A DNA stretch of 64,000 nt from Oleiharenicola lentus (lineage in GTDB: Bacteria > Verrucomicrobiota > Verrucomicrobiia > Opitutales > Opitutaceae): the NCBI RefSeq assembly GCF_004118375.1, contig NZ_SDHX01000002.1:919001-983000 (forward strand), given 5' to 3'. Position numbers and translations under genes: made by a program. A model generated the notes under the pieces. It saw only the letters and a list, made by a program, of their open reading frames with translations. It was not told the DNA's origin and did no database searches. Below are positions 13,227-29,731 of this stretch, piece by piece; the stretch's first letter is position 1, and each line of letters starts with the position of its first letter.

Positions 13227-14000
13227 TCAGAAACCCATGCTCGCGCCGCCGTCCACCGGCAGCACGGCGCCGGTGACGAATTTCGCGGCGGGCGAAGCCA
13301 GGTAAACCGCCGCCCAGCCGACATCGGAGACATCGCCGAGTTTCGCCATGGGCGTGCGGCTGATGATCTTGTTCTTGCGCGCCGGATCGCCGGCGAAGGC
13401 CTTGCGCGACATGTCGGTGTCGATCCAGCCCGGGGCGATGGCGTTCACCCGGATACCGTGGGAAGACAGCTCGGTGGAAAGCGTGCGCACCATGCCGAGC
13501 ATGGCGGACTTGGCCGAGGCGTAGGCCACGACGAGCGGGATGCCAAAGAGCGAGGCCATCGAGGCCGTGAAGATGATCGAGCCGTGCTTGCGCTCGATCA
13601 TGCCGGGGGCGACGAGCCGCGTGAGCTCGTGCGCGCCAATGATGTGCGTGTTAATCACGTCGAGGAACTCCTGCGGCGTGGTGTCCACGGCCGCCTTCTT
13701 GAGGTGCCGGCCGGCGTTGTTGACGAGGCACGTGATCGAACCGTGCTCCTGGGTGATGCGCTGCACGAGCGCCCCGGTTCCGGCCGTTTCCGTGATATCA
13801 TGCACGGCGTAGGCGGCACCCTCGCCCATCGTCTTGACGGCAGCGGCCAGCTCGGCCTCGCGCCGACCGACGAGCACGACGCGGGCGCCGGCCGCGTGCA
13901 TGGCCTGCGCGATGGCCTGGCCGATGCCGGTGCCGCCACCGGTCACGACCGCAAGTTCACCCTTGAGGGAAAAGATTCCGGGAAATTCGGAGGAATTCAT
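13227..14000 (-). CDS. Short-chain dehydrogenase/reductase (SDR)
   Basis: Cytoplasmic NAD(P)-dependent SDR of 257 aa. The cofactor motif GGGTGIGQA lies near residues 21-29, the NNAG motif in CLVNNAGRH, the catalytic Ser in TASMASL, and YASAKSA supplies the YxxxK pair. The end IAPGWIDTDMS and VLPVDGGASMGF is typical of the gluconate 5-dehydrogenase / uronate-linked SDR group. It is the most downstream gene of the corrinoid methyl-transfer cluster, 88 bp after the homocysteine-methyltransferase-like gene. A role in sugar-acid oxidation or reduction (for example fructuronate reduction) is possible but only inferred from context. Confidence 0.88.
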   Translation of the reverse strand: MNSSEFPGIFSLKGELAVVTGGGTGIGQAIAQAMHAAGARVVLVGRREAELAAAVKTMGEGAAYAVHDITETAGTGALVQRITQEHGSITCLVNNAGRHLKKAAVDTTPQEFLDVINTHIIGAHELTRLVAPGMIERKHGSIIFTASMASLFGIPLVVAYASAKSAMLGMVRTLSTELSSHGIRVNAIAPGWIDTDMSRKAFAGDPARKNKIISRTPMAKLGDVSDVGWAAVYLASPAAKFVTGAVLPVDGGASMGF

Positions 14001-14088
14001 GGGAATGACCGTTTAACCACCGATGGCCCCGAAAGGCACGGACAAGGGAATTCAACTGATTACTGCCATCCGGGAGCCGTTGGCGGGT

Positions 14089-15000
14089 TTACTGGGGCCG
14101 ATTGAAGGCCTCCACCACGCCACGGATGGCCCGAGTGTGATCAGGCGTGCTGCCGCAGCAGGAGCCGATGATGGAGATGCCGGTGGCGAGCACCTCGGGC
14201 ACGTCCTTGGCCATGTCGGCGGGGAGCTGCTTGTAAACCGCCTTGAGGTTCTCGAGCACGGGCAGGCCGGCGTTGGGCTGCACCATCACAGGCAGCGAAC
14301 AGTTTTCCCGGTAGAGCTTCCCGACCATGGCCGCGCCTTTCATGTCCATACCGGTGCCGCAGTTCAGCGCCGCGATGTGGGCGCCGCGTTCCTGGATGAA
14401 TTCCGCGGCCTGCTCGGGTGAGACGCCCATCATGGTCTTGTAGAACGTGCCATCCATCGAGAGATCGTAGGCCAGCGAGGCGATGATGCAGGAGCTGCCG
14501 GCGGCCTTCGCCGCGTCGATGGCCAGCCCGAGTTCCTCGAGGCCGGTCTGGGTCTCGATGATGATCGCGTCGGCCCCGGCCTTCACGAGCGCGGTTGCCT
14601 GCTCCTCCAGCGCGGAGCGCGCCTCGGCCTCGGTGAGTTCGCCGTAGGGTTCGAGCAGCGCGCCGAGCGGACCGATGTCCCCGAGCACATAGCCGGGGCG
14701 TCCGCCGAAGGCCTCGCGCGTGATGCGCACGGCGGCGGCGTTGATGGCCGCGAGTTCCGCCTCGTGGCCGTGGCGCCGCAGCATGATGCGGCTGCCGCCG
14801 AAGGAATTGGAGATGATGCAGTCCGCCCCGGCGTCGGCGTAGCGGCGCTGGATGGCGAGCACGCGGTCGGGATGCGTGAGGTTCCACGCCTCGCCGCAGG
14901 CCCCCGATTCGAGGCCGGCGAGGAAGAGCTGCGTGCCCATGGCCCCGTCACACACAAGGCGGCGGGTCGCGAGGGCTTCAAGGAGCGGGGGTTGGTTCAT
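14089..15000 (-). CDS. Homocysteine S-methyltransferase-family protein
   Basis: A 303-aa TIM-barrel protein of the betaine-/S-methylmethionine-homocysteine methyltransferase family, the fold of the MetH N-terminus. The family start CDGAMGTQLFLAG is near residues 18-30. The zinc-binding cysteines are seen as Cys in LNCGTGMDM and the CC pair in GSCCGSTPDHTRAI near the end. It may pass methyl groups to homocysteine or, like some relatives, accept methyl from a substrate into the corrinoid/THF pool. It lies between the MetF-like gene and the SDR gene on the same strand, supporting a place in the one-carbon cluster. Confidence 0.85.
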   Translation of the reverse strand: MNQPPLLEALATRRLVCDGAMGTQLFLAGLESGACGEAWNLTHPDRVLAIQRRYADAGADCIISNSFGGSRIMLRRHGHEAELAAINAAAVRITREAFGGRPGYVLGDIGPLGALLEPYGELTEAEARSALEEQATALVKAGADAIIIETQTGLEELGLAIDAAKAAGSSCIIASLAYDLSMDGTFYKTMMGVSPEQAAEFIQERGAHIAALNCGTGMDMKGAAMVGKLYRENCSLPVMVQPNAGLPVLENLKAVYKQLPADMAKDVPEVLATGISIIGSCCGSTPDHTRAIRGVVEAFNRPQ

Positions 15001-15023
15001 GGAGGAAGAAGACGAGTAACTTT

Positions 15024-15108
15024 ACCACTAATGGCCACTAAGAGGACACTAATTCATACCTCGTGATCGAGAATCCGTCATTAGTGTTCATGAGTGTAGA
15101 TTAGTGGT
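15024..15108. repeat. Imperfect palindrome with TTAGTG boxes
   Basis: ACCACTAAT (15024-15032) pairs with ATTAGTGGT (15100-15108). An inner box GACACTAAT is opposed by ATTAGTGTT. The whole 85-bp segment sits between the MetF-like and homocysteine-methyltransferase-like genes and could fold as a long hairpin in their transcript. It is AT-rich compared with its flanks. Confidence 0.6.
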
Positions 15109-15125
15109 TACAGGGATTGATTGAT

Positions 15126-15827
15126 TCAGAGTGGCGCGAAGTTGCCGAAGGCGTAAACGTGGAACCGGGCCAGGCGCGGGTGGCCTTGGAACGCCTTCAC
15201 GATGTAACCGGGATCGAAGCCGAAGACAAACCTCGCGATGTTCTTGGGATTGGAGAGCATGCCGCGCACGGAGTTCTCGATGCCGCAGACCGCCGCGAAG
15301 CGCGCGAGCTGCTTGAGCGAGCAGCGATTGGGCACGCCGAGGTGAACCGGCAGCGGCGACGCATCGAGGAAGCGGGCGATGGCCGCCTCGTCGAGCGACC
15401 ACTGCGTCACGACGAAACTCGCGTAGGCGGTCTTGCGGCGAAGGATATCAATGCCCTGCTCGAAAGTCAGCGGGCTGTTGCCTTCCGGGAAGCCCCCCAC
15501 CCCGATCTCGAAGCCGGCGAAGGCACCTGTCGCGACAAGTTCATCCACCGTGGCAAAGGCGCCCTCCTGATGCGTGTTGCCGCGGATGAGAAAAACCTTG
15601 CGCGTCAGCGGCCGAACCGCGGCGGCGATCGCGTGGGCGTCGGCCGCGTCCTTCACCTTGAACGCCGCGATGTGTGGCACGGGCTTCAGGCCCTTGGCGT
15701 GCAGTTCGGCGCACTTGGCCAGCACAGCCTCCTTGCCCTCGGTCGGCAGCCAGGTGACGAAGATCTCTTCGTAAGCAACGTCGGCCGGGACGTCGTTGCG
15801 GGTGGTGATTTCAAGACTCATGCCCAT
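15126..15827 (-). CDS. MetF-like methylenetetrahydrofolate reductase family protein
   Basis: A 233-aa protein with the methylenetetrahydrofolate reductase barrel pattern, shorter than typical MetF. Recognisable pieces are GLKPVPHIAAFKV, the folate/flavin-side segment VFLIRGNTHQEGAF, FEIGVGGFPEGNSP and the C-terminal VHLGVPNRCSLKQLARFA. In a corrinoid pathway it would oxidise methyl-THF made by the methyltransferases to methylene-THF, or run the reverse. Starts at 15827 and 15821 are equally possible. It is flanked by a palindrome on one side and a type-B repeat on the other. Confidence 0.8.
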   Translation of the reverse strand: MGMSLEITTRNDVPADVAYEEIFVTWLPTEGKEAVLAKCAELHAKGLKPVPHIAAFKVKDAADAHAIAAAVRPLTRKVFLIRGNTHQEGAFATVDELVATGAFAGFEIGVGGFPEGNSPLTFEQGIDILRRKTAYASFVVTQWSLDEAAIARFLDASPLPVHLGVPNRCSLKQLARFAAVCGIENSVRGMLSNPKNIARFVFGFDPGYIVKAFQGHPRLARFHVYAFGNFAPL

Positions 15828-15904
15828 GGGGAAAGGAAGGAACGGTATTTAACCACGGAGGGACCCGGATGCACGCCGAAGGGAATCAAAAGCTGCGCAA
15901 CCTG

Positions 15905-15989
15905 GCATCCTGAGCGCAGCGAAGGATCCAGTGACAACCGCAGGCCATGACCGCCCGCCTCTGGATCCTTCGCTGCGCTCAGGATGACA
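15905..15989. repeat. Inverted-end repeat, family B, copy 1
   Basis: About 85 bp with ends CATCCTGAGCGCAGCGAAGG and, inverted, CCTTCGCTGCGCTCAGGATG. The sequence between the arms is variable. It lies upstream of the MetF-like gene. Confidence 0.8.
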
Positions 15990-16038
15990 GGCCGGGTGGA
16001 ATGACCCTGATTCGTGTCTGTTCGTGTTCATCCGCAGC

Positions 16039-17361
16039 TCAAAGTCCGGCTCCGTCGAATTGCTCGCCTGTGCTGAACACCCGGCCGTCGAAGACCACGG
16101 TGCGGGCACGGCGCATATTCCGCACGGTTTCGAGCGGCGAATGCCGCGTCAGGATGAATCGGCTGCGCCAGCCGGGCGCGATGCGGCCGAACTTTTGGCC
16201 GAACGCCAGCCGGTCAGCCGCGGCACCGGTGGCGGCGTGGATGACGGCTGCCGCGGGCAGGCCGGCGCGCTCCATCAGTTCGAGTTCGTAGAGCAGGCCC
16301 AGGCCGTGCGCCACGCCGCAGGAGCCGGCGTCGCTGCCGGCCAGGATGATCACACCGCGGGCGTGCGCCTTCACGAGGCTGGCGGCGTGGGCGTCGAGAA
16401 TGCGCTGGAGGTTGCCCGTGACACTGGCGTCCCAGTTGTAGCGGGCGGCTTCGTCCACCTGCACCTGCACGGGCGCGAAGGTCGGCACCCACGCGATACG
16501 GCGGTCGCGCATGCGCTCCAGCTGGTCGTCGCGCATGAAGAAGCCGTGTTCGACCGAGTCCACCCCTCCCTCGACGACGCGCTCGATGCCCGCGTCGCCC
16601 GAGGCATGCGCCAGCGTCTGGCGGCCGGCTCCGTTGGCCGCGGCGGCGAACTCGCGCAGCTCCGCGGTCGTCATCTGCGGCTCGGCGGTCACGGCGCCCT
16701 TCTGAAAATTGATGATCCCGGTCGGGATCAGTTTGATCCGGTCGGCGCCGCCGGCGATTCGCGCCGCCACACAATCAGCCGGCGAGGCAAACTCCTCCAA
16801 CGCCCCGCCCATGAAACTGCCGTAACGGCCGCGCCGGTGGATGGCGGCGCCCGGGCTGTCGAGGTAAGGCATCAAAGTGGGGCCAGTCTCCGACTGGCCA
16901 AGCGTCCGGTCGGAGACCGGACCTGCGCGACTTTTGCACAGCCGGCTGAGCGCGAGGCCCACACCGTCCTTGTCGCCCGCATCGCGCACACCCGCAACGC
17001 CGAGGCGCACAAGTTTTTCCAAGCGCGGCATGGCAGAGGCCAAGAGTTCGGCCGGAGACTGCTTCAGATAAGCCGCGCGTTTGTCGAGGTCGAGTTCGCC
17101 GCCCTCGAGGAAGAGATGCGTATGCGCGTCGATCAGGCCAGGAAGCAGCGTCGCATCGGGCGCGACGACGTCGGGAGCCGTCTGCCCCTCACGCAGAAGT
17201 TCGGCCGGTGGCGTTTGGCCATTCCCCCCCACAAAGCGGATGCCGGCCGCATCATAGACAATATGCGCGTCCCTCGCCGGCGCAGCGTTCGAGCCGTCGA
17301 GCAAGGTGCCGACGTGCAGCCAAACCGGGTGACCGGGAGTGCCCTGGGGAATCACGCTCAT
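16039..17361 (-). CDS. Amidohydrolase-family protein with an in-frame palindromic insert
   Basis: A 440-aa metal-dependent amidohydrolase of the imidazolonepropionase/prolidase-like group. The HxH metal motif is in LLPGLIDAHTHLF; later metal-site pieces are QTLAHASGD, SVEHGFF and the aspartate in ILAGSDAG. Residues about 146-161 are encoded by a family-A double-hairpin repeat (16879-16923), adding a peptide unlike the family between SRLC and LMPYLD. Read-through is intact, so the protein may still be made. The ATG at 17361 is chosen because upstream sequence belongs to a family-B repeat. It lies inside the corrinoid cluster, but its substrate is unknown. Confidence 0.83.
   Translation of the reverse strand: MSVIPQGTPGHPVWLHVGTLLDGSNAAPARDAHIVYDAAGIRFVGGNGQTPPAELLREGQTAPDVVAPDATLLPGLIDAHTHLFLEGGELDLDKRAAYLKQSPAELLASAMPRLEKLVRLGVAGVRDAGDKDGVGLALSRLCKSRAGPVSDRTLGQSETGPTLMPYLDSPGAAIHRRGRYGSFMGGALEEFASPADCVAARIAGGADRIKLIPTGIINFQKGAVTAEPQMTTAELREFAAAANGAGRQTLAHASGDAGIERVVEGGVDSVEHGFFMRDDQLERMRDRRIAWVPTFAPVQVQVDEAARYNWDASVTGNLQRILDAHAASLVKAHARGVIILAGSDAGSCGVAHGLGLLYELELMERAGLPAAAVIHAATGAAADRLAFGQKFGRIAPGWRSRFILTRHSPLETVRNMRRARTVVFDGRVFSTGEQFDGAGL
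16879..16923. repeat. Double-hairpin palindromic repeat, family A, copy 3 (inside a CDS)
   Basis: Hairpin GGCCAGTC-TCC-GACTGGCC (16881-16899), spacer AAGC, then hairpin GTCCGGTC-GGA-GACCGGAC (16904-16922). Both stems are perfect and the loops TCC and GGA are complementary. On the minus strand it is read in frame within the amidohydrolase gene as AGPVSDRTLGQSETGP. Confidence 0.9.
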
Positions 17362-17379
17362 GACACAGCCCGCCTTTTT

Positions 17380-17519: not shown

Positions 17520-18449
17520 TTAGTCGGCGGGCGCGGCCTCCGCACAGATCGCCATGATGGCCTCGGCCTGGCGGTAGCCGGCAGTTTCTTGGGATTCGCT
17601 CTCGAGCGGACGACCGGCGGCGAGGGCCTCGCGGAGCTTGGCGACCATCGAATGATCGGCGGGCAACGGAGCGGGAGACTTCTCAGGATTGGCGAGGGCG
17701 AAATCGAGGCCGACCTCCATGCCGAGCGTGAGGTAGGCGCACTCCAGCAGCTCGCGTACACCCTTCGGCGTGCCCCAGGCGAAGTTCGATAGGCCGACAA
17801 TCAGGTGAACACCCTTGAGGTGCGGGTCGGTGCTGATCATCCGCATGGCATCGAGGCCGATGTTGACGAGCCCGTAGGTGTCGGCGCCGACTGGCGCGAG
17901 GCCGGGATCAATGATGATCTGGTCGTTCGTGCGATCGGCCTCGGTGACGAGCCGGTCCACGAAATGCTTGGCGGCGGCGTAGGCGTCCTGCGGATTCAGG
18001 CACTGGGCGCTCCCGCCGGGCACGAAGTGTTCCGAGGCCATGACGACGACCTTGGTGTCGTAGTCCTTCACGAGCCGGATCAACTCGTCGAGGTGCGTGC
18101 GCGACGCGGCGACCGAGTTGAGAATGGGCTGACCGCTCTTGGCGCGGTCGTAGTGCCGCAACGCGACCTTGTGGTATTCGACGGATGGGTTGTCGAAGCT
18201 GATGGGCCGGTCGGTCGCGGCCTGGATGGAGCGGATGACACCCGGCAGCAGCTCAAGCATTTCCTCCATGCGCACCGAGATGCGGGCGGTGCCGTCGAGG
18301 TTGAGCGTGAGGTATTGCACGCCCAGGTCCGCCTGAAGCTTCGCGAGGTGCGCGTAGGCGGCGGGGTTGCGCTCGGTGAAGGCCGTGCGTGCGCGGGCGT
18401 AGGAGTTGTTGATCAGCTCGCCGATGATGTTGAGGGGACGGGGGGGCAT
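17520..18449 (-). CDS. Methyltetrahydrofolate:corrinoid methyltransferase (DHPS-fold)
   Basis: A 309-aa pterin-binding barrel of the AcsE/MtvA type. It starts MPPRPLNIIGELINNSYARA, the usual entry of methyl-THF:corrinoid methyltransferases. Other family pieces are YLTLNLDG near residue 47, PISFDNPSVEYH near 83-94, the ILNSVAA segment, IIIDPGLAPVG and GVHLIVGLSNFAWG. It should transfer a methyl group between tetrahydrofolate and the cobalt of the neighbouring corrinoid protein (MT2 role in demethylation). An upstream extension of the frame falls in a family-B repeat, so the ATG at 18449 is used. Confidence 0.87.
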   Translation of the reverse strand: MPPRPLNIIGELINNSYARARTAFTERNPAAYAHLAKLQADLGVQYLTLNLDGTARISVRMEEMLELLPGVIRSIQAATDRPISFDNPSVEYHKVALRHYDRAKSGQPILNSVAASRTHLDELIRLVKDYDTKVVVMASEHFVPGGSAQCLNPQDAYAAAKHFVDRLVTEADRTNDQIIIDPGLAPVGADTYGLVNIGLDAMRMISTDPHLKGVHLIVGLSNFAWGTPKGVRELLECAYLTLGMEVGLDFALANPEKSPAPLPADHSMVAKLREALAAGRPLESESQETAGYRQAEAIMAICAEAAPAD

Positions 18450-18462
18450 GGGGTTGTTTCGT

Positions 18463-18545
18463 GTCATCCTGAGCGAAGCGAAGGATCCAGCGGAACGACC
18501 GCCTGCGCGCATGCCTCTGGATTCTTCACTGCGTTCAGAATAACA
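18463..18545. repeat. Inverted-end repeat, family B, copy 3
   Basis: The left end GTCATCCTGAGCGAAGCGAA is the full consensus. The right end TTCACTGCGTTCAGAATAAC is a slightly diverged inverse. It lies between the corrinoid-protein and MeTr genes. Confidence 0.8.
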
Positions 18546-18623: not shown

Positions 18624-19592
18624 TTAGGCGGTGCTATCGAGCTCCTTCACGATCGCCTTGGCGACGTCCTCGGGGGTGCCGGGGCGCGACTGCTCCTCGC
18701 CCCAATGGAGTTCGGCCGTGTAGGCGTCGCCGGAGGTGAGTCCGAGTTTCTGCGCGGTGGCGTCGATGCGTTCGGCGAACTTCGCGGGCAGATCCATCTT
18801 CACCTCGCCGAAGTCATCCCAGACCTTCACGGAGGAAGGCAGGTCCTTCCAATAGAGGATCTGGTATTTGACGACGTTGTTGGCCGGGCGCGCGGCGGCG
18901 ATGGCGCTCGCGGTGGGTTTCACGCCCGCGCGCAAAGCGGCCTTGGGCGCGGGGCCCTTGCCCACGAGATAGAGGAACAGGTCCACCGCGGACGAGGCGT
19001 CGGCGCCGTAACCGTCGGCGCCGATCTCGTCGGCGAACATCTGGCTGATCGGCGCACCGCCGATGGCCATCTTGATGTGGTCGTAGGGCGGCTTGTCGCA
19101 ACCGTCGATGACGGTCTTCATGTAGGTCATCGTGGTGGTGAGCAGCGCGCTCATGCCGATGATGTCCGGCTTGAACTCGTCGGCCGCGGCCTGGAATTTT
19201 TCCACGCTCTGGTCCACGCCGATGTCCTTCACGACGAAACCGGCGCCCTCGGCCATCATGCAGACGAGGTTCTTGCCAATGTCGTGGAGGTCGCCGCGCA
19301 CCGTGCCCATGAGCAGGCGGCCGGTGGACGAGGTGTCGGGGCCGTGCGCGGAGAGCAGCGGCTTGAGCACCGCCATGCCGGCCTTCATCGCACGGGCCGA
19401 GATGAGCACCTCGGGCACGTAGAGAATGTTGTGCTTAAAATCCTCGCCGACGACCGACATGCCGGCAATGAGGCCCTGTTCGAGGACCTCCTTGAAGTGG
19501 CGGCCTTCGGCCAGGGCGTCCTTGGTCATCTGTTCGACTTCCTTGGCTTTGCCCTCGTAGATGCACTGGTTCATTAACGCGTAGTCTGGCAT
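18624..19592 (-). CDS. Corrinoid (B12-binding) methyl carrier protein with C-terminal virulence-factor-like domain
   Basis: A 322-aa methyl-carrier protein. Residues about 1-85 are the helical cap domain. The B12-binding Rossmann domain follows, with the base-off ligand motif DLHDIGKN (D101, H103, G106) and later GMSALLTTTM and AIGGAPIS. Residues about 238-322 are an extra domain beginning YQILYWKDLP and continuing VKMDLPAKFAERID and GDAYTAELHWG. This resembles the small 'virulence factor' domain (Pfam PF13769 as I recall it), which ordinary MtaC/MtvC proteins lack. It should carry the methyl group between the URO-D-type methyltransferase encoded just upstream and the MeTr encoded downstream. 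Confidence 0.88.
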   Translation of the reverse strand: MPDYALMNQCIYEGKAKEVEQMTKDALAEGRHFKEVLEQGLIAGMSVVGEDFKHNILYVPEVLISARAMKAGMAVLKPLLSAHGPDTSSTGRLLMGTVRGDLHDIGKNLVCMMAEGAGFVVKDIGVDQSVEKFQAAADEFKPDIIGMSALLTTTMTYMKTVIDGCDKPPYDHIKMAIGGAPISQMFADEIGADGYGADASSAVDLFLYLVGKGPAPKAALRAGVKPTASAIAAARPANNVVKYQILYWKDLPSSVKVWDDFGEVKMDLPAKFAERIDATAQKLGLTSGDAYTAELHWGEEQSRPGTPEDVAKAIVKELDSTA

Positions 19593-19710: not shown

Positions 19711-20775
19711 TTACGCGCTGCCGAAGTGGGCTTTGTTGAATTCGTCGAGTGCGGCCTTCATCGCCACGATGTTCTCGCGGGGCATGCCGGGGCTGGTGCC
19801 GCCACCGACGGAGAGCACCATGTTCCGGCCGTCCTTCGCGCCTTTTTCGAGCACGTCGAGCGTGGCGGCGCGAACCTCGGCGACGGTGCCGCGCACGCCG
19901 ACTTCGAGGGGATTGACGTTGCCCATGAGACACATCCGGTCGCCGATGCGCGCCTTCACGTCGGCGATGTCGGTCTGTTTGCCCCAGTTGAGCATGTTGA
20001 AACCGGCGTCGGGCAGGTGTTCGAGGCAGGCCTCGATGGAGGCGTCGTTGTGGTAGAGTTTCACCCAGTCTTTCGGGAAGGCGTCGCAGATGCGCTTCAG
20101 GTAGGGATGACAGAATTCCTGATAGTGCTCCTCGTTCACGAAGCCCACGATGTCATCGAGAAGGAATATGCCCTCGACGGTCGGGCCCATCGCTTTGCAC
20201 TGGGCCTTGAGCCAGTCGATGATGATGCGGGTCGAGAGGTCGAGGAGCTTGTGGGCCCATTCGGGTTTCTCGACGAGATCGATCATGAAGTCGCTGGTGT
20301 TGCGGGCGAAGCCGGCGGTGCACATCGGGCCGCGCGCGGTGGCCATCGTCCAGATCTCACCGGTGTCGAGCACCTGCTGACGCTGCATGCGCAGGCGGTG
20401 GAGCGTCATCGCCATGAAGGCGTCGGCCTCGACCTCATACTCGGGCAGCTTGTCCACGTCCTCGATGTTGAAGAGCATGTGGTATTCGCTCGGCGTGTTG
20501 TCCTGCCAAAACTTGATCTTGGAACCGAGCACGGACGGCTCGGCAGCCATACCGTATTCGAGCCACCAGCCGGGCACAAAGATGATGTCGGGGAATTCCT
20601 TATGGATCTTCAGGTGCGACTGGAACCACAGCTGCGGATCAAGGAAGAAGTCCATGTGCTTCACGCCGACGTAGCCCGGGATCCAGGGGCTGTCGATGAT
20701 CATGGCCATCGGAATTTTGGAGAGCTTCTCGCCGTGGGCGGCGCGTTTGAAAGTGTCCCATTGGGCGGGCGTCAT
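19711..20775 (-). CDS. URO-D-family methyltransferase (substrate:corrinoid, predicted MT1)
   Basis: A 354-aa uroporphyrinogen-decarboxylase-fold protein of the corrinoid methyltransferase branch rather than the heme enzyme. Pieces seen are FVPGWWLEYGMAAE, the MATARGPMCTAGF segment, GIFLLDDIVGFVNEEHYQEF and GFNMLNWGKQTDI. In MtaA-type members an HxC plus a later Cys bind zinc. Here the first site reads LYHNDAS and the late site SVGGGTSPGMP, so His is kept and both Cys are lost, which argues against a thiol acceptor. Position next to the corrinoid protein suggests the substrate-demethylating role (MT1). Substrate inferred, not shown. Confidence 0.83.
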   Translation of the reverse strand: MTPAQWDTFKRAAHGEKLSKIPMAMIIDSPWIPGYVGVKHMDFFLDPQLWFQSHLKIHKEFPDIIFVPGWWLEYGMAAEPSVLGSKIKFWQDNTPSEYHMLFNIEDVDKLPEYEVEADAFMAMTLHRLRMQRQQVLDTGEIWTMATARGPMCTAGFARNTSDFMIDLVEKPEWAHKLLDLSTRIIIDWLKAQCKAMGPTVEGIFLLDDIVGFVNEEHYQEFCHPYLKRICDAFPKDWVKLYHNDASIEACLEHLPDAGFNMLNWGKQTDIADVKARIGDRMCLMGNVNPLEVGVRGTVAEVRAATLDVLEKGAKDGRNMVLSVGGGTSPGMPRENIVAMKAALDEFNKAHFGSA

Positions 20776-20858: not shown

Positions 20859-21185
20859 TCACGGCGCGATCAGGATTTCCTTCTCGGTGACCTGGAGCTG
20901 CACGCCGGCGGCCTTGGCGGCTTCGTCAAGGCAGGCCTTGAGCATCACGACCGGATCGGGGCTGACGTCGATGCGGCGCATGAGACCGAAGCCCTTCTTG
21001 GTGCCGACGGTGAGGTTGACCTTGAGGCCGCGGCGCTTGGCGGCGACGCGCGTGCCGTCGGGCAGCGCGGCGTTCATGGGCTTGAGGAAGGCGTCCACGT
21101 AATGGACGCCGATGCCGGACTTGTCGGTGAAGCCGGGCGGCAGCTTCTCGGTGGCGGCGGGGGCGATGTCGCAGAGTTTCAGCAT
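20859..21185 (-). CDS. Small conserved-looking protein of the methyl-transfer cluster
   Basis: A 108-aa protein with no signal or membrane segment, starting MLKLCDIAPAATEKLPPGFT. It has a basic middle (AAKRRGLKVNLTVGTKKGFG) and an alpha-helical end. I do not recognise the family. Its ATG overlaps the stop of the MetH-activation-like gene by 7 bp, so the two are probably translationally coupled. That placement between the activator genes and the methyltransferase suggests a role in corrinoid handling or substrate binding. The reading frame is open further upstream, but that stretch belongs to the neighbouring gene. Confidence 0.6.
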   Translation of the reverse strand: MLKLCDIAPAATEKLPPGFTDKSGIGVHYVDAFLKPMNAALPDGTRVAAKRRGLKVNLTVGTKKGFGLMRRIDVSPDPVVMLKACLDEAAKAAGVQLQVTEKEILIAP

Positions 21186-22429: not shown

Positions 22430-24079
22430 TCAGGTTTCCGAAACCTCCGCACCACCGACCGGGGCGAACTGGCAGCCCTCGACGAAATAATCGAAAAAGC
22501 CCGGATGCGTCTCCAGCCGGCAATGCTGCACCCGCTTCACGAGCGCCTCCAGCTCCGCGCGCTTCGTGCGCGAAAGCAGCGCGATGCACGCGCCTTCGAC
22601 GGAAGCGTTGCCGACCTGCACAATTTTCTCCGCGGGCAGGTTCGGAATGAGACCGATGCGCTTGGAGGATTCGAGTCCGAGGTGACGGCCGAAACCGCCA
22701 GCGAGGTAGAAGACGTCGAGTTGCGAGTAATCGAGGCCATATTCGGCAAAGGCAATCTGCAGGCCGGCGACGTTGGCGCCCTTGGCCTGGGCGAGCGCGT
22801 TGATGTCAGCCTCGCTGAAAGTCACGGGGCGGTCGCCGGCGGACGTCACGACAAACTCGTGCGAACCGTCCTCGAAGCGGCCGAGCGCGTTCATGCGGCC
22901 CGTGCGCAGCAACTCGGCCAGCAAGTCCACCAGGCCGGACCCGCAGATGCCCTCGGGCGGCACGTCGCCGATGACGCGCGTCTCGACGCGGCCGTCGTCT
23001 TGGATGGCCACTTTCTCGATGGCCCCAGGCAAGCCCGGCATGCCGAAGGTGATTTGACCGCCCTCGAAGGCGGGACCGGCGGGGCAGGAGGCGGCGAGGA
23101 CCTTGTGCTTGTTGCCGACGATGAGCTCGGTGTTGGTGCCGATGTCCATCACGGCCACGAGGTGCTCCTCGTGCGCGAGGTCCACGGCGAGCATGCAAGC
23201 CGCAGCGTCAGCGCCCACATGGCCGCTGATGATGGGCAGGCCGTAGATGCGCGCCTTCGGATGAATCGGCAGGCCGAGCCGGCGCGCGGTGTTACTGAGG
23301 CTGGTCGTCGTGCGCTTGCCCTCGGCAATCTCCAGTTCGGTAAGGGACTGGTAGGGACTCTGTCCGATGGAATAGACCGAGAGCCGGAAAAACATGTCCC
23401 GCATCGTCGAGTTGCCGGCGATGATGACCTCGTAGATCGAGCGCGGATCGACCGGAAACTCCGTGATCGCGCGGCTCAGGTAGCCGGTGAGCGTGCGTTG
23501 GAGCGTCTTGGTGCGGTCCTCCGTGTCGTATTGGATGCGCGCCATCACGTCGGAACCGCCGAAGCGCTGCGGATTTTCAAACGACGAATCGGCGACGACC
23601 TCACCGGTCTCGAGATTGAGCAACCGAATGACGACGGTCGTGGTGCCAAGATCGATGGCGAGGCCGTGCAGCGGCCCGGTGCCGCGGTCGATCTCGACGC
23701 CGTCGAGGAGGATGCGGTCGCCGTCACGCGTGACGGCGGGATCGAGCTGCCAGGTGCGTGGACCGGTGGGCAGCTCAAAGGCGTGCTTCTCGATCTTCAT
23801 CGTGCCGCGACGCATGGTGTGGCAGCGCACGGTCCCCTGCTCCGCCGTGACGCGGGTGCAGCAGGAGAGACGGAAATTACCCTTCAAGTGCTTTTCCTCG
23901 GGACCGGGCTTCGACAGGCAGTCCATGCCCTCAGCCACCTCGATGACGCACTCCTTGCACTTGCCCTGCTTGTTGCACGAGGTCGGCACGGGAATGCCGA
24001 GCTTCTCACCGTAAGTGAACAGCGAGGTGCCCGGCTCGGCCGGGGTGACGAGCGAGTTGAAGTGGAGCTCGACGCTCAT
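22430..24079 (-). CDS. RACo-type ATP-dependent corrinoid reductive activator (2Fe-2S + ASKHA)
   Basis: A 549-aa protein that should reduce and reactivate the Co(II) state of the corrinoid protein at the expense of ATP. The N-terminus is a plant-type 2Fe-2S ferredoxin domain with C35, C41, C44 and C73 or C74. A linker follows, then an ASKHA ATPase domain with phosphate motif LAIDLGTTTVVI near 140-151, VMDIGTNTELIVG, the GSGLVDLLAELL segment and FYLAGGFGRHLG near the end. It is the first gene of the minus-strand methyl-transfer cluster; a family-B repeat lies upstream, between it and uxuA. Confidence 0.9.
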   Translation of the reverse strand: MSVELHFNSLVTPAEPGTSLFTYGEKLGIPVPTSCNKQGKCKECVIEVAEGMDCLSKPGPEEKHLKGNFRLSCCTRVTAEQGTVRCHTMRRGTMKIEKHAFELPTGPRTWQLDPAVTRDGDRILLDGVEIDRGTGPLHGLAIDLGTTTVVIRLLNLETGEVVADSSFENPQRFGGSDVMARIQYDTEDRTKTLQRTLTGYLSRAITEFPVDPRSIYEVIIAGNSTMRDMFFRLSVYSIGQSPYQSLTELEIAEGKRTTTSLSNTARRLGLPIHPKARIYGLPIISGHVGADAAACMLAVDLAHEEHLVAVMDIGTNTELIVGNKHKVLAASCPAGPAFEGGQITFGMPGLPGAIEKVAIQDDGRVETRVIGDVPPEGICGSGLVDLLAELLRTGRMNALGRFEDGSHEFVVTSAGDRPVTFSEADINALAQAKGANVAGLQIAFAEYGLDYSQLDVFYLAGGFGRHLGLESSKRIGLIPNLPAEKIVQVGNASVEGACIALLSRTKRAELEALVKRVQHCRLETHPGFFDYFVEGCQFAPVGGAEVSET

Positions 24080-24117: not shown

Positions 24118-24200
24118 GTCATCCTGAGCGGAGCGAAGGATCCAAGCGGTCCTTGTGCCATGCGTCTCGCCCTTGGATTCTTCGCTCCGCTCAGAATGAC
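24118..24200. repeat. Inverted-end repeat, family B, copy 4
   Basis: Ends GTCATCCTGAGCGGAGCGAA and, inverted, TTCGCTCCGCTCAGAATGAC, with GGATCC-type inner arms. It fills the gap between the RACo-like gene start and the uxuA stop. Confidence 0.85.
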
Positions 24201-24227: not shown

Positions 24228-25313
24228 TCACCGCTTCCCCTCCAAACTCATGATCCCGGCCTTCAAAAAACCCAGCGCGTAGGCCATACCGGCGTGCCAG
24301 GGGGCGGCGCAGCTCATCTGCGGCGCGTGGTCGGGGATGATCACGCCCTCGAAGCCATTCTTCTTCAGGATCGCGAGCACACGGAGCACATCCACTTCGC
24401 CGTCGTCAATGAAGGTCTCCTTGTAGTGCGGGACCTTGTCGCGAACGTTGCGCAGGTGGACGTAGCCAAGGCGGTTTTGCCGCGAGTAGTTGTCCACCAC
24501 GTCGTAGATGTCGCCCTCCGTCATCTCGGCGAGCGAGCCGACGCAGAACTCAAACTGGTTCACCGGGCTCGGGTTGAGGTCCACGACCTTCTGGTAGAGC
24601 GACGGCTGGTAAACCAGTCGCGGCTGGCCGCGAATGAAAGGCATCGGCGGATCGTCGGGATGAAGCGCGAGGCGCACGCCGGCCTTTTCCGCCACGGGCA
24701 CGATCTCGTCGAGGAAGCGCTTGTAGCGGTCCCACAGCTGCTCGTGTGTGGCCGCCGGGATGTTACCGGTCGGCCGCGAGGGCGCGGTGGGATCCACGAC
24801 CATGTTCCAGACGAGGCCGTTGGGCATCGGCAGGTCGTAGGCGCCCTCCATGCCGACGGACGGGGCGTCGCCGCGCGCGTAGTTGCCCTTGGTGCGGCCG
24901 GCCACGCCCGCGATGGAGAAATTGTAACCCATGATCGGGATGCCCGCCTCGCCCAGTCGGCGGATGATCGTCTTCACGTTCTCGATGTGCTGCGCGCGCT
25001 TCGGGCCGTCCAACAAGATGTCGCCCCAGTGGGCCGGATCGAAGTTCTCGATCGCCTCCAGCTTGAGGCCAGCGGCCTCGACATTGCGGCGGATGGTCGT
25101 GAGTTCGTCGAGCGGCCAGAGTTTGTCAGGATCGCCCGCGAGCCCCCAACCCCAGTCGGTGCCCAGCGGCTGGTCGTCCGTGGCGGAGTGACCGGCGCCC
25201 CCGCAGAAATAGTCCACGAGATGCGCGACGATGTGCGTGGCACCGGCCTGCTTCGCAAAGGCGAAGTTCTCCGGCGTAAGCATGTGGCGGTAAAGACCGA
25301 GACCGAGCTTCAT
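24228..25313 (-). CDS. uxuA: Mannonate dehydratase
   Basis: A 361-aa TIM-barrel enzyme converting D-mannonate to 2-keto-3-deoxygluconate, the step after glucuronate is isomerised and reduced. It starts MKLGLGLYRHMLTPENFAFA at the ATG at 25313. Family marks are GAGHSATDDQPLG, IENFDPAHWGDILLDGP, MGYNFSIAGV, the metal-site segment RLALHPDDPPMPFIRG, FEFCVGSLAEM, YVHLRNVRD and IIPDHAPQM near the end. The frame is open far upstream, but that part runs through the LacI gene and is not coding. It is followed by the corrinoid methyl-transfer genes and preceded by its likely LacI regulator. Confidence 0.93.
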   Translation of the reverse strand: MKLGLGLYRHMLTPENFAFAKQAGATHIVAHLVDYFCGGAGHSATDDQPLGTDWGWGLAGDPDKLWPLDELTTIRRNVEAAGLKLEAIENFDPAHWGDILLDGPKRAQHIENVKTIIRRLGEAGIPIMGYNFSIAGVAGRTKGNYARGDAPSVGMEGAYDLPMPNGLVWNMVVDPTAPSRPTGNIPAATHEQLWDRYKRFLDEIVPVAEKAGVRLALHPDDPPMPFIRGQPRLVYQPSLYQKVVDLNPSPVNQFEFCVGSLAEMTEGDIYDVVDNYSRQNRLGYVHLRNVRDKVPHYKETFIDDGEVDVLRVLAILKKNGFEGVIIPDHAPQMSCAAPWHAGMAYALGFLKAGIMSLEGKR

Positions 25314-25366: not shown

Positions 25367-25377
25367 TCAACGGTTGA
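25367..25377. promoter_or_regulatory. Candidate LacI-type operator before uxuA
   Basis: TCAAC-G-GTTGA is a perfect palindrome around a central base. It overlaps the last codons of the LacI gene and lies 54 nt before the uxuA start. A half-site, TCAACGG, recurs just upstream of the LacI gene itself (near 26415). Binding is inferred only from position and symmetry. Confidence 0.35.
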
Positions 25378-26410
25378 GCGATGTGGCCTGCTTCTGCAAC
25401 GAGTCCCCTTCGATCCACTCGCTTTCCACCATCTCCGTGCGGGGGGTGGCAGGGATGCCGAGGTCGTGGTTGACGATGCGGGCGGCGAGGAGTTCGACGG
25501 CCCAGGCGCCCATGAGGCGCTGGTTCTGCTGGAGGCCGCTGAAGCCCGAACCCTTCACCTCGTGGCTGAGCACGACGACGCCGAGGCGCTTGGGCACGCC
25601 GACCTGGAGGCGCTTCAGCACGGCGCGCAACCGGGCGATCATCTCGGGCAGGTGCACGAAAATCAGCACGTCGGGCTTTTGCCGCACGAGCCATTCGGTG
25701 AAGGGTGGCTCCTCCAGCCCCTGCAAGCGCAGGATCGGCAGCGCGGCGCCGGGACCCAGCACATGCTCGCACCAGCCGAGGTAGGCTGCGCTGTGGGCGT
25801 AGGCGCTGCGCGTGTCCTCGTACGCGCCGAGCACGAGACCCGGACGCTTGTAACCGAGCGCATGCACGCGCTCCAAGGCGTGCAGCGTGTCGTTGTAAAA
25901 ATGGCTGGTCACGCGGTGCAGGGGCGTGCGGATGCTCAGTCCGACGGTGACGATAGCGTGTTTCCCCAACTCGTCAGGAAACTCCTCGCCGAAGTCCGGG
26001 CTGCCGAAACAGAGCAGCCCGTCGATGCCGCGGGCGACGAGTATTTCGTCGAACCGGCGGTGCGTCATGCCCGGGGCGCGCAGCCAGAGCGGCTCGACAC
26101 GGTAGCCGAGTTCGCCGGCGCGGGCCTGCATGCCCTCGTAGATCTTGCCGAGGTGCCGCGAACGCTCCCACGGCCGCAGGGTGTCGTAGAACGAGATCAC
26201 GCCGAAGCAGGCCTGCGGACGCACGTCGCGCGGTTTCCGCAGGTGGCGCATGAGATCCGCGATCCGCGCATCGGGCGCATAACCGGTCTCACGTGCGAAC
26301 TTCAGCACCAGCGCCTTGGTCTTGGCCGAAATGCGCGGGCTGTCGCGCAACGCGAGCGACACGGCCGAGGGGGACACGCCGGCGAGCTTGGCGATGTAGC
26401 GGACGTTCAT
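25367..26410 (-). CDS. LacI-family transcriptional regulator
   Basis: A 347-aa repressor. Residues 1-24 form the helix-turn-helix with the LacI pattern RYIAKLAGVSPSAVSLALRD; the hinge and a periplasmic-binding-like sensor domain follow (FGVISFY near 68, GIDGLLCFGSPDF, VVVLSHEVKGSGFSGLQQN). It likely senses a sugar or uronate and controls uxuA downstream, and perhaps the GH115 gene upstream and the methyl-transfer genes. A palindrome TCAACGGTTGA lies at its 3' end, 54 nt before uxuA. Confidence 0.9.
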   Translation of the reverse strand: MNVRYIAKLAGVSPSAVSLALRDSPRISAKTKALVLKFARETGYAPDARIADLMRHLRKPRDVRPQACFGVISFYDTLRPWERSRHLGKIYEGMQARAGELGYRVEPLWLRAPGMTHRRFDEILVARGIDGLLCFGSPDFGEEFPDELGKHAIVTVGLSIRTPLHRVTSHFYNDTLHALERVHALGYKRPGLVLGAYEDTRSAYAHSAAYLGWCEHVLGPGAALPILRLQGLEEPPFTEWLVRQKPDVLIFVHLPEMIARLRAVLKRLQVGVPKRLGVVVLSHEVKGSGFSGLQQNQRLMGAWAVELLAARIVNHDLGIPATPRTEMVESEWIEGDSLQKQATSLNR

Positions 26411-26596: not shown

Positions 26597-26678
26597 GTCA
26601 TCCTGAGCCGTGCGAAGGATCCAGCAGCATTACCGCCTACGGACATCATCTTGGATCCTTCACTTCGTTCAGGATGAC
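26597..26678. repeat. Inverted-end repeat, family B, copy 5
   Basis: Ends GTCATCCTGAGCCGTGCGAA and TTCACTTCGTTCAGGATGAC. It lies in the 408-bp gap (26411-26818) between the LacI and GH115 genes. I see no gene in that gap. Confidence 0.8.
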
Positions 26679-26696
26679 AAACAAGGGATTTCTTGG

Positions 26697-26780: not shown

Positions 26781-26818
26781 AAACGGGATGGAAATCCCGT
26801 GCAATTCGTGAGTCTGTC

Positions 26819-29731
26819 TCATCCGCGCGGGCTCTCCGGCGGGCCGAGGTAGCTGGGGCGCACACCCGGCGCGGGGCGCGGGCCGCGCGCGGGCGGGGCG
26901 GCGGGCGGAGGCGCGGTGTCGATGACGATGCGCTCGAGCACGACGCCGGGGTCCACGAGCCAGAACTTGAGCGTGTGCTGGCCGGGGGCGGCGAGCTTGT
27001 GCAAGGTTGCGACGCGGCGAACGCTGTCGGCGACGGCGGCATACCAGTTGGCCTGTGGCGTCCAGGTGCCGACCTTCACGACCTGCGGCGGCTCGTCGTC
27101 AATCGAGACGGCGTAGCGCAGGCCCTCGCCGGACTGGAAGTCGAGCGACGGCGCGAGATGCACCTCCACCTTCACGTCACCGGACGAGAACGCGTGCAGG
27201 TCGTATTCGAGCCGCGGTGTGGCGCCGCCGGGCGTCACCGCCGGCAGGGTCACGGGGAAAGCCGTGACGCCGCCATGCGTACGTCCGAAACCAGGCAGCT
27301 TCTGCCAGGTCGCCCCGCCGGCCTCGACGGCCCGGTCGAAGCTGAGCGCGTTGATCGCGATGTGACGGTCGGACTCCACAAATCCCTTCACAGTTTCGGC
27401 CGGTTTGTGCACGGGCAGCTGCACGGCGAAACGCCCGGCACCGCCGCCGTTGAAGGTCACGGTAGCGGCGGTCTTGCCTGCGGGCACGGCGTCCCAGTCC
27501 ACGCCGAGCTTAATCCGCACGGAGCGGTCCTCGACGCGACCGGCAACGGCGGACACTTTCACCCACGGCTGATCGGCGGAGACCTTGAAGTCATAGCCCT
27601 CGGCCCCGCGGTTGAACAGCTCGACCCAGCGCGTGGTTTTCCCATGCAGCACATTCAGCTCGGGCAGCACCGGGCGAGGCGCGCCATAGACCGGCCAGCC
27701 GACCTCGGAGCCCTCGATGGCGGCGCCGAGCGAGGCGCCGGCACGCGGCAGCACCTCGTGCACCGCCGGCATGGCGTCCATCTCGGGCGATTGCCAGTAG
27801 GTGTAGCCGAACTTGATCTGGCTCATCATGTGGTTCCACTTGCCGCCGCCGAGCCGGTGATACTGCTCGGCGAGCTTTCGGTCGGCGGCGAAGAGTTCGC
27901 GGGCGCGGGCGGAGAACAGGTTGGCGTCGGTGCGGCCCTGCCGCGCGTAGAGCCGGTTGAGGCCAACGGAAACGTAGAGTTCGTGCACGCCGGCGCTGGC
28001 TTTCACCGGATAGAGCACGAGCTGGTAGAACGCGTCGCGGTATTCGGGTGCGAGGGCGGCGTTGAGTTTCTCCGCGCGGGCAACGAGGTCCGCCCACTCG
28101 GCGAGCAGGCGCTCGGCCTCGCGGTAGTTGGTCAGGCTGTAGGTGTCGGGCTCGAGCAGCTCGGGCGTGCGGCGGCGGTTGAGCTTGGAGTAGCCGTTGA
28201 TGAGCGCGGCGACTTCGGCGGCGTGCTCCGCGCCGAACTCACGTGCGGCCCACTGCTGCGAGTAATCCTCCAGTTTCTCGTAGGGCCAGCGGGCGGGGTT
28301 CCACGCGTAGCGGATGAAGAACTCAAGCGGGAACTCCATCGGCTTGAGGTCGCCAACGTTGACGATCCAGATGCGGTTGGCCTCGAGCTGCCAGGCGAGG
28401 TGCATCTGCTCCCAGACCTTCGTGATTGGGGTGACATTGATCCACTTGTAGTTTCGCGGACCGCCCACGTAGTCGAAGTGATAGTAAACGCCCGCGCCGC
28501 CCGGGCGCTTGCGCTCTTCGGGTGTGGGCAGGCGGCGGATGTTGCCCCAGTTGTCGTCGCACCAGAGCAGGATCACGTCGTCGGGCACGCGCATACCGGC
28601 CTCGTAGTAGTCCTGCACCTCCTTGTAGAGCGCCCAGAGCTGGGGCTGCTGCTCGACCGGCTTGCCGGTGACGTCGCTGATGATCTTCCGCTGGTCGGCC
28701 ACGATCCGCTCGAGCAGCTTGGTGTTGGTGTCGGCCGTCATGGCCTCGTCGCCGTCGCCGCGCATGCCGAGCGACATGATGTTCTCGAAGTTCTTGGTGC
28801 GCTCGACACTGGAGCGCCAGAAGTCGCGGAGCACGGCGTCGTTCTTGGAATAATCCCACGCGCCCTTGCCGTACTTGCCCCACTCGGCGTGGGCGCGCAT
28901 GAGCGGCTCGTGGTGCGAGGTGCCCATGACGATGCCGTATTCGTCGGCGAGGCGCGGGTTCTCGGGGTCGTCGTCGTTGAAGGCCCGGGGCAGCCACATG
29001 GCGGGCCAGAGGTAGTTGGCGCGCAGGCGGAGCATCAGCTCGAAGAGGTCGGCGTGAAACTCGCGGCCGAAGCGGCCGTATTTTTCGTAAACCCAGCCGG
29101 TGAGGGCGGGCGCCTCGTCGTTGAGGAAGAGGCCGCGGTATTGCACGGCCGGGCTGCCGACGACGGTGCGGCCGGGGGCGAGGAACAGTCCGGCGCTCTT
29201 CTTCACCGGAACATCGGCCCAGAAATACCACGGCGACACACCGATGTGTTCGGAGATTTCGTAGATGCCGTAGATGGTGCCGCGCTTGTCGCTGCCGGCG
29301 ATGACGAGGGCGCGGTCCACGCCGGGCAGCGGCTGGTCGACCGTCTCGATGACGAAGGCCTCCCACTTCCCGCGGATGGCGGCGACGTCGAGTTTGCCGG
29401 CGGCCACGAGGCCGTCGATGAGCGCGCTTTTGCCGATGGTCCCGATCAGGACGGCCACGGGGGCTTGCACGGTCATGCTCGTTGAAAATTCCGGTTTCCG
29501 CCCCGTCACGCGCTCGATGTCCTTTTGGAGGTCGCGGGCCGCGCGCAGCACGCCCGGCCAGTCGTTGTCCGCGGCAAACAGCGGAGCGGGCTGCGCGCCT
29601 GTCACGAGGGGGAGGGCTCCGGCCGTGCCGGCCGGCACAACCAGGGAGGTTTCGCTGAGCGCGGCCCAGGCCGGGGTCAGACAAAGCAACAGGCCGGACA
29701 AACAGGACAGGAGCAGCAGGCGATGGCTCAT
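26819..29731 (-). CDS. GH115 alpha-glucuronidase (xylan)
   Basis: A 970-aa secreted glycoside hydrolase of family 115, which removes glucuronic or 4-O-methylglucuronic acid side chains from xylan. The signal peptide spans residues 1-23 (ending AWA). GH115 pieces include GSDKRGTIYGIYEISEHIGVSPWYFWADVPV, QYRGLFLNDEAPALTGW, LRLRANYLWPAMWLP, YGIVMGTSHHEPLMRA, LWCDDNWGNIRRLPT and FDYVGGPRNYKWIN. The C-terminal part (after about 720) is a beta-rich domain usual for the family. The ATG at 29731 fits the signal peptide; an upstream open stretch contains a hairpin. With uxuA and LacI downstream, it defines a glucuronoxylan utilisation locus. Confidence 0.93.
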   Translation of the reverse strand: MSHRLLLLSCLSGLLLCLTPAWAALSETSLVVPAGTAGALPLVTGAQPAPLFAADNDWPGVLRAARDLQKDIERVTGRKPEFSTSMTVQAPVAVLIGTIGKSALIDGLVAAGKLDVAAIRGKWEAFVIETVDQPLPGVDRALVIAGSDKRGTIYGIYEISEHIGVSPWYFWADVPVKKSAGLFLAPGRTVVGSPAVQYRGLFLNDEAPALTGWVYEKYGRFGREFHADLFELMLRLRANYLWPAMWLPRAFNDDDPENPRLADEYGIVMGTSHHEPLMRAHAEWGKYGKGAWDYSKNDAVLRDFWRSSVERTKNFENIMSLGMRGDGDEAMTADTNTKLLERIVADQRKIISDVTGKPVEQQPQLWALYKEVQDYYEAGMRVPDDVILLWCDDNWGNIRRLPTPEERKRPGGAGVYYHFDYVGGPRNYKWINVTPITKVWEQMHLAWQLEANRIWIVNVGDLKPMEFPLEFFIRYAWNPARWPYEKLEDYSQQWAAREFGAEHAAEVAALINGYSKLNRRRTPELLEPDTYSLTNYREAERLLAEWADLVARAEKLNAALAPEYRDAFYQLVLYPVKASAGVHELYVSVGLNRLYARQGRTDANLFSARARELFAADRKLAEQYHRLGGGKWNHMMSQIKFGYTYWQSPEMDAMPAVHEVLPRAGASLGAAIEGSEVGWPVYGAPRPVLPELNVLHGKTTRWVELFNRGAEGYDFKVSADQPWVKVSAVAGRVEDRSVRIKLGVDWDAVPAGKTAATVTFNGGGAGRFAVQLPVHKPAETVKGFVESDRHIAINALSFDRAVEAGGATWQKLPGFGRTHGGVTAFPVTLPAVTPGGATPRLEYDLHAFSSGDVKVEVHLAPSLDFQSGEGLRYAVSIDDEPPQVVKVGTWTPQANWYAAVADSVRRVATLHKLAAPGQHTLKFWLVDPGVVLERIVIDTAPPPAAPPARGPRPAPGVRPSYLGPPESPRG

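Follow-up and report, generated by a model that had tools for sequence, protein, structure and literature searches.

The window analysed here comprises 64,000 nucleotides of the Oleiharenicola lentus genome (positions 919001-983000 of the second contig; 4.71 Mb in two contigs). Within it, 13 complete ATG-started genes, all on the minus strand, occupy positions 13227-29731. This cluster likely encodes a corrinoid-dependent O-demethylase for 4-O-methyl-D-glucuronate, or for the next acid derived from it, that is joined to uronate breakdown. With somewhat less confidence, we consider it probable that it represents a dedicated 4-O-methylglucuronate demethylase, i.e., a new cobalamin-dependent branch that cuts an aliphatic sugar ether, occurs in at least six phyla and comes with its own repair protein and a 108-amino-acid (aa) partner. 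What is observed as the base of this reading is the gene content, a recurrent linkage, the co-occurrence in genomes, protein folds and motif differences.

Most of the 13 genes were assigned by Pfam and NCBIfam profile scans (Table 1). They include the parts of a corrinoid three-component O-demethylase, i.e., a URO-D-fold methyltransferase (MT1), a corrinoid protein, a pterin-binding methyltransferase (MT2) and a RACo-type activator, for which the transfer of an ether methyl group is predicted. Beside these, the core set holds a homocysteine S-methyltransferase-type (Hcy-type) protein, a protein with the fold of the MetH reactivation domain (MetH-fold protein) and the 108-aa protein. A first-pass annotation had described such a methyltransferase set on one strand next to uxuA, a LacI regulator gene and a GH115 alpha-glucuronidase gene. 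All genes it named are present as complete minus-strand frames; the amidohydrolase gene and the frame of the 108-aa protein were missed by its list.

Uronate genes beside relatives of MT1

We compared 86 loci, i.e., the best 80 of 89 loci with MT1 relatives, five further relatives and the window. Neighbour clusters were derived from our own open reading frame picking and BLAST clustering, with gene counts that are approximate, and their families were named by a Pfam scan of one or two representatives per cluster. The 80 loci stem from Acidobacteriota (37), Verrucomicrobiota (27), Bacteroidota (4), Ignavibacteriota (3), Planctomycetota (3) and Gemmatimonadota (1), while the remaining five, KSB1 included, are not resolved to phylum. 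By title, many of the records come from peat, soil or freshwater. The core set recurs across phyla with MT1 identities of 61-92%; the MT1 of the window is 92% identical to that of Opitutaceae-type metagenome-assembled genomes (MAGs). With regard to core partners in the same locus, the corrinoid protein is found in 72, RACo in 64, the MetH-fold protein in 60 and the 108-aa protein in 54 of the 86 loci. For the genes of the methyl-acceptor side, the respective values are 51 (Hcy-type enzyme) and 20 (MT2).

UxuA is encoded in 15/86 and GH115 in 14/86 loci. A GH67 alpha-glucuronidase is found in 15 loci (Acidobacteriota 11, Verrucomicrobiota 2, Planctomycetota 1, Gemmatimonadota 1), a CE15-like glucuronoyl esterase in 9 loci from at least four phyla and an enolase-superfamily dehydratase, with a putative glucarate dehydratase as nearest PDB entry, in 12 acidobacterial loci. 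Taken together, GH67 or GH115 is present in 27/86 loci, or in 18 of the 42 loci flanked by 6 kb or more in both directions. When asking for at least one of the five families (GH67, GH115, CE15-like, UxuA, enolase-type dehydratase), the numbers rise to 37/86 and 23/42, respectively. That is, GH67, the CE15-like esterase and a second dehydratase family add support to the uronate-linked O-demethylation that the first-pass annotation had proposed.

The number of loci with GH67 or GH115 (27) compares with 0.75-2.2 expected by chance, and the maximum over 20,000 simulations was 10, under a model that places 2-6 copies at random in 4.5 Mb and ignores the clustering of polysaccharide genes. Under this simple model, a chance clustering of MT1 with alpha-glucuronidases was thus rejected. 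After dereplication, an alpha-glucuronidase is found in 8/25 loci (85% MT1 identity) or 6/14 loci (80%). On an MT1 tree of 83/86 loci, which was built by a quick search and includes several long or gappy rows, we count 11 state changes for GH115, 9 for GH67, 8 for UxuA and 9 for CE15-like. Since a cut contig reads as absence, the count was redone on the 41 rows with flanks of 6 kb in both directions. This yields 8 (GH115), 6 (GH67), 6 (UxuA) and 6 (CE15-like) changes, while shuffled labels on the same rows give 9.9, 8.3, 11.2 and 5.8, respectively. Given these several changes, a single inherited arrangement is no explanation; the pairing of MT1 with uronate genes was gained or lost several times, with gain and loss being indistinguishable.

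The first-pass annotation had contrasted its interpretation with a scenario in which MT1 homologues lie mostly away from GH115 and uxuA, next to genes for aromatic or amine methyl donors. The first half of this scenario applies, i.e., both families occur in a minority of the loci. For the second half, a family scan of 103 of 221 candidate neighbours, taken from loci without uronate genes, revealed neither ring-cleavage nor methylamine families among the 25 most frequent of 147 matched families. This also concerns a rival reading, in which the enzyme demethylates lignin-type methoxy aromatics or methanol and the xylan genes adjoin it since both substrates come from lignocellulose. In its favour, CE15 esterases cut lignin-xylan links, and the characterised O-demethylases of the URO-D superfamily use methoxyaromatics according to the excerpted text of PMC13222342. 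Beside the result for ring-cleavage families, no methanol MT1 is among the 22 PDB matches of the MT1 profile, and neither alpha-glucuronidases nor uronate dehydratases are needed for aromatics. We rate this reading as quite unlikely.

Co-occurrence in genomes and loci without alpha-glucuronidases

The linkage was also assessed for whole genomes in two evenly drawn samples. The phylum sample comprises 387 genomes, of which seven (the window's genome included, all from one family) carry a full MT1 at a minimum of 75% identity. GH67 is present in 7/7 MT1 genomes compared to 23/380 others, based on 30 strong matches; adding the six weak matches that were left out (four of which exceed the family cut-off, and all of which are outside the MT1 genomes) results in 7/7 vs. 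29/380. For GH115, the values are 7/7 vs. 67/380, and the coordinates place it less than 40 kb from MT1 in all seven carriers. Co-occurrence with GH115 within Verrucomicrobiota, part of the check suggested by the first-pass annotation, is thus borne out. Within the window's family, GH67 is found in 7/7 vs. 5/30 and GH115 in 7/7 vs. 11/30 other genomes among the matches listed. One genome (G091) holds a 131-residue MT1 remnant (72% identity) together with GH115, and GH67 was not found there.

For an acidobacterial order (180 genomes, MT1 at a minimum of 65% identity), GH67 is present in 11/11 MT1 genomes vs. 60/169 others. Both samples together show GH67 in 18/18 MT1 carriers, already known carriers included. 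As a prediction from gene context, the earlier interpretation is supported by independent comparative evidence. Of 57 named loci lacking a local GH67/GH115, we furthermore checked 50 genome-wide, omitting seven on short contigs. Of these 50 genomes, 37 encode GH67 elsewhere, 37 GH115, 33 both and nine neither; one with both families is that of strain DG1235 (L052).

Several observations weigh against a uronate-linked 4-O-methylglucuronate demethylase. None of the five uronate families is found in 49/86 loci, many on short contigs; among the 42 loci with flanks of 6 kb or more in both directions, 19 are without all five. For UxuA as well as for the enolase-type dehydratase, all named loci belong to a single phylum (with five UxuA loci lacking a name), and MT2 is present in only 1/37 acidobacterial loci. 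In the window's genome, UxaC is encoded outside the cluster, adjoining SDR and UxaE-like genes. With regard to the samples, the MT1 genomes are related such that Fisher values overstate their independence. Among the 11 acidobacterial MT1 genomes, one shows only a partial MT1 match and six were known beforehand, with GH67 found in 5/5 of the others (p 0.0066). What speaks most clearly against a single substrate are the nine of 50 MT1 genomes, MAGs of unstated completeness, without GH67 and GH115. Here, L039, L041 and L080 encode the full core set, L036 shows a row of MT1, corrinoid protein, MTHFR, MT2 and amidohydrolase, and L059 and L096 hold part of the core, while the MT1 of L032, L051 and L076 is without corrinoid neighbours.

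These genomes bring in the reading that the enzyme demethylates another methylated plant sugar, e.g., one of the methyl ethers found in arabinogalactan or in pectin side chains, and has xylan genes as neighbours since all are plant-wall genes. Near the L036 MT1 we find RhaT-like, aldolase and apiosidase-like genes, the MT1 locus of L041 adjoins GH2 and major facilitator superfamily (MFS) genes, and GH51 and GH3 genes recur near MT1. On the other hand, the most frequent carbohydrate-active enzymes among clusters in at least five loci are GH67 (15), GH115 (14) and CE15-like (9), which outnumber GH51 (6) and GH3 (5), and no MT1 carrier of the two samples is without GH67. All three leading families bear on (4-O-methyl)glucuronate: in the excerpted text of PMC13386854, GH67 and GH115 are the alpha-glucuronidases of glucuronoxylan and CE15 is the esterase of (4-O-methyl-)glucuronate-lignin links. 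We thus regard another methyl sugar as unlikely for the system as a whole. With regard to L036 itself (749-9787), the genes upstream are those of an aldehyde dehydrogenase, a RhaT-like protein, an HpcH/HpaI aldolase, a hydroxyacid dehydrogenase, an SDR and an apiosidase-like protein. These sugar-acid-like neighbours perhaps reflect an oxidative route or another methyl sugar.

More distant MT1 paralogues of about 35% identity were found in seven genomes, with GH67 in one and GH115 in four of them. Given these numbers, they probably do not belong to the same system. A paralogue of 34-36% identity in L020 has Hcy-type and corrinoid proteins in its vicinity, a hint that more URO-D/corrinoid systems exist for other donors.

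Components and proposed pathway

The nearest solved sequence to the MT1 profile is CdmB of Acetobacterium (9rui, E 1.2e-12), and the profile's 22 PDB matches are CdmB, UroD and one methylcobalamin:coenzyme M (CoM) methyltransferase. The best NCBIfam name is the MtaA/CmuA family (E 3.7e-26), for which 92.2 bits are reached at a cut-off of 235.4. MtaA/MtbA CoM methyltransferases share the URO-D fold with MT1 and differ in their H-x-C...C residues, which we take to be the zinc site for thiol activation. When aligned with the CoM enzyme 4ay7, H-x-C becomes H-N-D and the third Cys becomes Gly in MT1. Among its relatives, YHNDA is present in 84/84 and HxCG in 0/84, such that an identity as CoM methyltransferase was rejected. 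The same holds for HemE, since MT1 scores 67.9 bits against a curated cut-off of 302.95 and a 380.9-bit URO-D match is encoded elsewhere in the genome. For the genome's other non-HemE URO-D gene (L024), no corrinoid-type match was found in the four frames scanned.

As far as excerpted in PMC13222342, the aromatic O-demethylases MtvB, OdmB, VdmB and MtoB as well as CdmB belong to the UroD superfamily, and Cdm catalysis is zinc-free while some other O-demethylases do contain zinc; the excerpts of PMC13222342 and PMC8630106 report no zinc for Cdm and the Moorella O-demethylase. A putatively zinc-free MT1 is in keeping with Cdm-like catalysis, without being diagnostic. The acetogen and chloromethane systems (MtvB, OdmB, VdmB; CdmBCA; archaeal MtoABCD) also resemble the cluster in their composition of a URO-D MT1, a small corrinoid protein, an MT2 and an ATP-dependent 2Fe-2S activator. 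In contrast to what is proposed for the cluster, they act on methoxyaromatics or haloalkanes, and MT1 matches CdmB only at the above E-value. Furthermore, the window's set adds the Hcy-type enzyme, the Cys-rich MetH-fold protein and the 108-aa protein, and it adjoins alpha-glucuronidase and uronate dehydratase genes.

The corrinoid-protein signature DxHDxGK is present in 72/77 members. In the window, the corrinoid protein has an additional PF13769 domain at its C-terminus; the median relative has 220 aa, and some others are also long. MT2 additionally matches the NF005719 domain (E 1.6e-31, below that model's cut-off). The Hcy-type protein has three cysteines, presumably zinc ligands, and its motifs are found in 50/50 (N[CS]G) and 48/50 members (GxCCG[ST]). 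Instead of the short MetF-like protein of the window, 20 other loci encode a longer protein, whose scanned representative combines MTHFR with DUF5981. Beside MT2, the amidohydrolase recurs in 15/86 loci and is possibly a hydrolase of folate one-carbon (C1) units.

With regard to reactivation, the activator matches the RACo family domains PF14574, PF17651 and Fer2, from which its ATP dependence is predicted. For the MetH-fold protein, no Pfam match was found in 19 members, and a PDB sequence search was also without result. Its AlphaFold2 model (mean pLDDT 82) resembles the MetH activation domain of Thermotoga maritima (1j6r; Foldseek E 1.8e-10, TM 0.81 on the target), i.e., by its model the product shows the fold of the AdoMet-binding MetH activation domain. 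The MetH-activation-like label of the first-pass annotation is thus appropriate for about the first 205 residues. The conserved Cys-rich C-terminal part carries an invariant set of cysteines, with a CxxCx4C motif in 52/56 members, and the protein is a candidate Fe-S electron donor to the corrinoid. The 108-aa protein yields a best Pfam E-value of 0.082 and no PDB sequence match, and its model of fair quality (pLDDT 85) finds no fold match at E <= 0.001; it possibly serves the demethylase as a subunit or stabiliser.

The presence of separate corrinoid, pterin and homocysteine modules could also indicate a split methionine synthase, in which the URO-D protein would assist methionine synthesis or the handling of corrinoids. 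Indeed, the marine split MetH/glycine-betaine demethylase system (MtgBCDE), as excerpted in PMC12478193, likewise combines separate PF02310, PF00809 and PF02574 modules with an activator. Its methyl-donor module is PF06253, which was not found among the 13 cluster genes scanned, while the window has a URO-D protein instead. Furthermore, a complete MetH (1323 aa, above the equivalog cut-off) is encoded on the other contig, which speaks against a main role in supplying methionine; methionine synthesis was thus rejected as the role of the set. A split synthase also leaves the alpha-glucuronidase link unexplained. In the acidobacterial loci, MT1 is retained, frequently together with the Hcy-type enzyme, but MT2 is found in just one locus of 37. 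We consider this reading very improbable. Just downstream of the full MetH gene, a short stretch in a separate frame (1182247-1182432, first contig) repeats the C-terminus of MetH.

The GH115 gene of the cluster is the sole GH115 match in the genome. Although GH67 and GH115 are separate families, its product also shows a weak GH67 N-terminal match below the cut-off, and its N-terminus resembles a secretion signal as judged by eye. Likewise, the UxuA gene is the sole PF03786 place in the genome. The protein matches the mannonate dehydratase 3ban in the PDB (E 1.5e-32) and, at 149.8 bits, stays below the cut-off of the NCBIfam model for mannonate dehydratase (191 bits). Of the family's motifs, which we take to be metal-ligand motifs, HPDDPP and FCxGS are present in 15/15 and HLRN and PDHAP in 9/15 members. 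For the SDR, only generic SDR matches were obtained, and no cut-off was reached among the best 25 of 234 NCBIfam rows.

From these components we infer the substrate, direction, step order and methyl acceptor of the following pathway. GH115, or GH67 in other carriers, would free 4-O-methylglucuronate from xylan. Inside the cell, MT1 would transfer the methyl group of the ether to the corrinoid protein's Co(I), and the resulting methyl-Co(III) would pass it on to tetrahydrofolate via MT2 or to homocysteine via the Hcy-type enzyme. Co(II) would be rescued by RACo and the MetH-fold Fe-S candidate. The freed glucuronate would be converted to mannonate by UxaC and a reductase, and UxuA would then dehydrate the mannonate. 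The genome encodes UxaC and UxuA family members as in the hexuronate pathway UxaC-UxuB-UxuA, while here the corrinoid set shares the UxuA locus. To our knowledge, the textbook version of that pathway has no step for a 4-O-methyl group.

The C4 oxygen of glucuronate is the C3 hydroxyl that mannonate dehydratase eliminates. Within the glucarate route, the leaving group is the C4 hydroxyl, which is removed by glucarate dehydratase. Because the methylated C4 oxygen is the group that both dehydratases eliminate, demethylation must come first. A methyl ether at C4 should block both, which would account for the pairing of a single conserved MT1 with two dehydratase families. If the acidobacterial dehydratase acts on glucarate, the common substrate of both routes is 4-O-methylglucuronate itself. 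Otherwise, 3-O-methylmannonate is also a possible substrate, because UxuA and not UxaC sits in the cluster. With regard to the methyl acceptor, the genes for MT2 and MTHFR-like proteins speak for tetrahydrofolate and methyl oxidation; in other carriers, the more widespread Hcy-type enzyme speaks for homocysteine. As excerpted in PMC12478193, one corrinoid protein serves both roles in a marine bacterium, and thus both acceptors may hold here.

The hardwood xylan of plants carries 4-O-methylglucuronate as its main acidic side group, and its methyl ether is thus an abundant biological methyl group. Marine Bacteroidetes demethylate 6-O-methylgalactose oxidatively with a P450. Removing the methyl group of a methyl sugar is therefore known as such, and the novelty would lie in a corrinoid route. 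The first-pass annotation knew of no such route for this sugar, in line with our search: among the matches listed, open-access titles and abstract starts name no corrinoid or other O-demethylase for 4-O-methylglucuronate, and no bacterial removal of the 4-O-methyl group after GH67/GH115 release was found. PMC13386854, matched by Opitut-, GH115 and demethyl- terms, uses demethylation for the cleavage of pectin methyl esters in its excerpted part. If the proposed pathway is true, it supplies a missing step of glucuronoxylan use, makes the methyl groups of xylan available to C1 metabolism through the folate pool, and does so by a corrinoid route that needs no oxygen. The supply of vitamin B12 would then be relevant to the decay of hemicellulose in peat and sediment.

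Gene order and repeats

The coordinates of all cluster genes are given in Table 1. The RACo and MetH-fold genes are separated by a gap of 3 bases, and the ATG of the 108-aa gene lies inside the 3' end of the MetH-fold gene with an overlap of 7 bases. Both distances suggest translational coupling.

Table 1. Genes of the cluster with their positions in the window and the evidence for their assignment.
Gene product	Position	Strand	Evidence
Short-chain dehydrogenase (SDR), candidate fructuronate/mannonate reductase	13227-14000	-	PF13561 E 2.2e-57
Homocysteine S-methyltransferase-type (Hcy-type) protein	14089-15000	-	PF02574 E 9e-55
Short MetF-like protein, possible methyl-tetrahydrofolate oxidation step	15126-15827	-	TIGR00676 E 1.4e-5, far below cut-off
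Amidohydrolase	16039-17361	-	PF01979 E 1.8e-19
Pterin-binding methyltransferase, predicted MT2 (methylcorrinoid to tetrahydrofolate)	17520-18449	-	PF00809 E 1.9e-12
Corrinoid (B12-binding) protein	18624-19592	-	PF02310 E 7.6e-26 and PF02607
URO-D-fold methyltransferase, predicted MT1 (O-demethylase)	19711-20775	-	PF01208 E 3.1e-42
Conserved 108-aa protein	20859-21185	-	recurrence at related loci
MetH-reactivation-fold protein with added Cys-rich C-terminal part	21179-22426	-	AlphaFold2 model and Foldseek
RACo-type ATP-dependent corrinoid activator (predicted), 2Fe-2S domain	22430-24079	-	PF14574 E 3.8e-71, PF17651, Fer2
UxuA-family protein, predicted mannonate dehydratase	24228-25313	-	PF03786 E 9.4e-53
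LacI-type regulator, candidate cluster repressor	25367-26410	-	PF00356 E 5.1e-10
GH115 alpha-glucuronidase	26819-29731	-	PF15979 E 7.3e-153, GH115_C E 8.2e-51

Two repeats were observed within the cluster region. The palindromic repeat GGCCAGTCGGAGACTGGCCC has five matches in the window (0.02 expected), all between positions 13166 and 21709; those at 16880-16899 and 21666-21709 are located in frame within the amidohydrolase and MetH-fold genes, respectively. A second repeat, GGATCCTTCGCTNCGCTCAGGATGAC, is found at 15904-15988, 18463-18488, 24118-24200 and 26597-26678, mostly as facing pairs. Its seven matches in the 64-kb window (0 expected by chance) are all located in intergenic gaps of the cluster.

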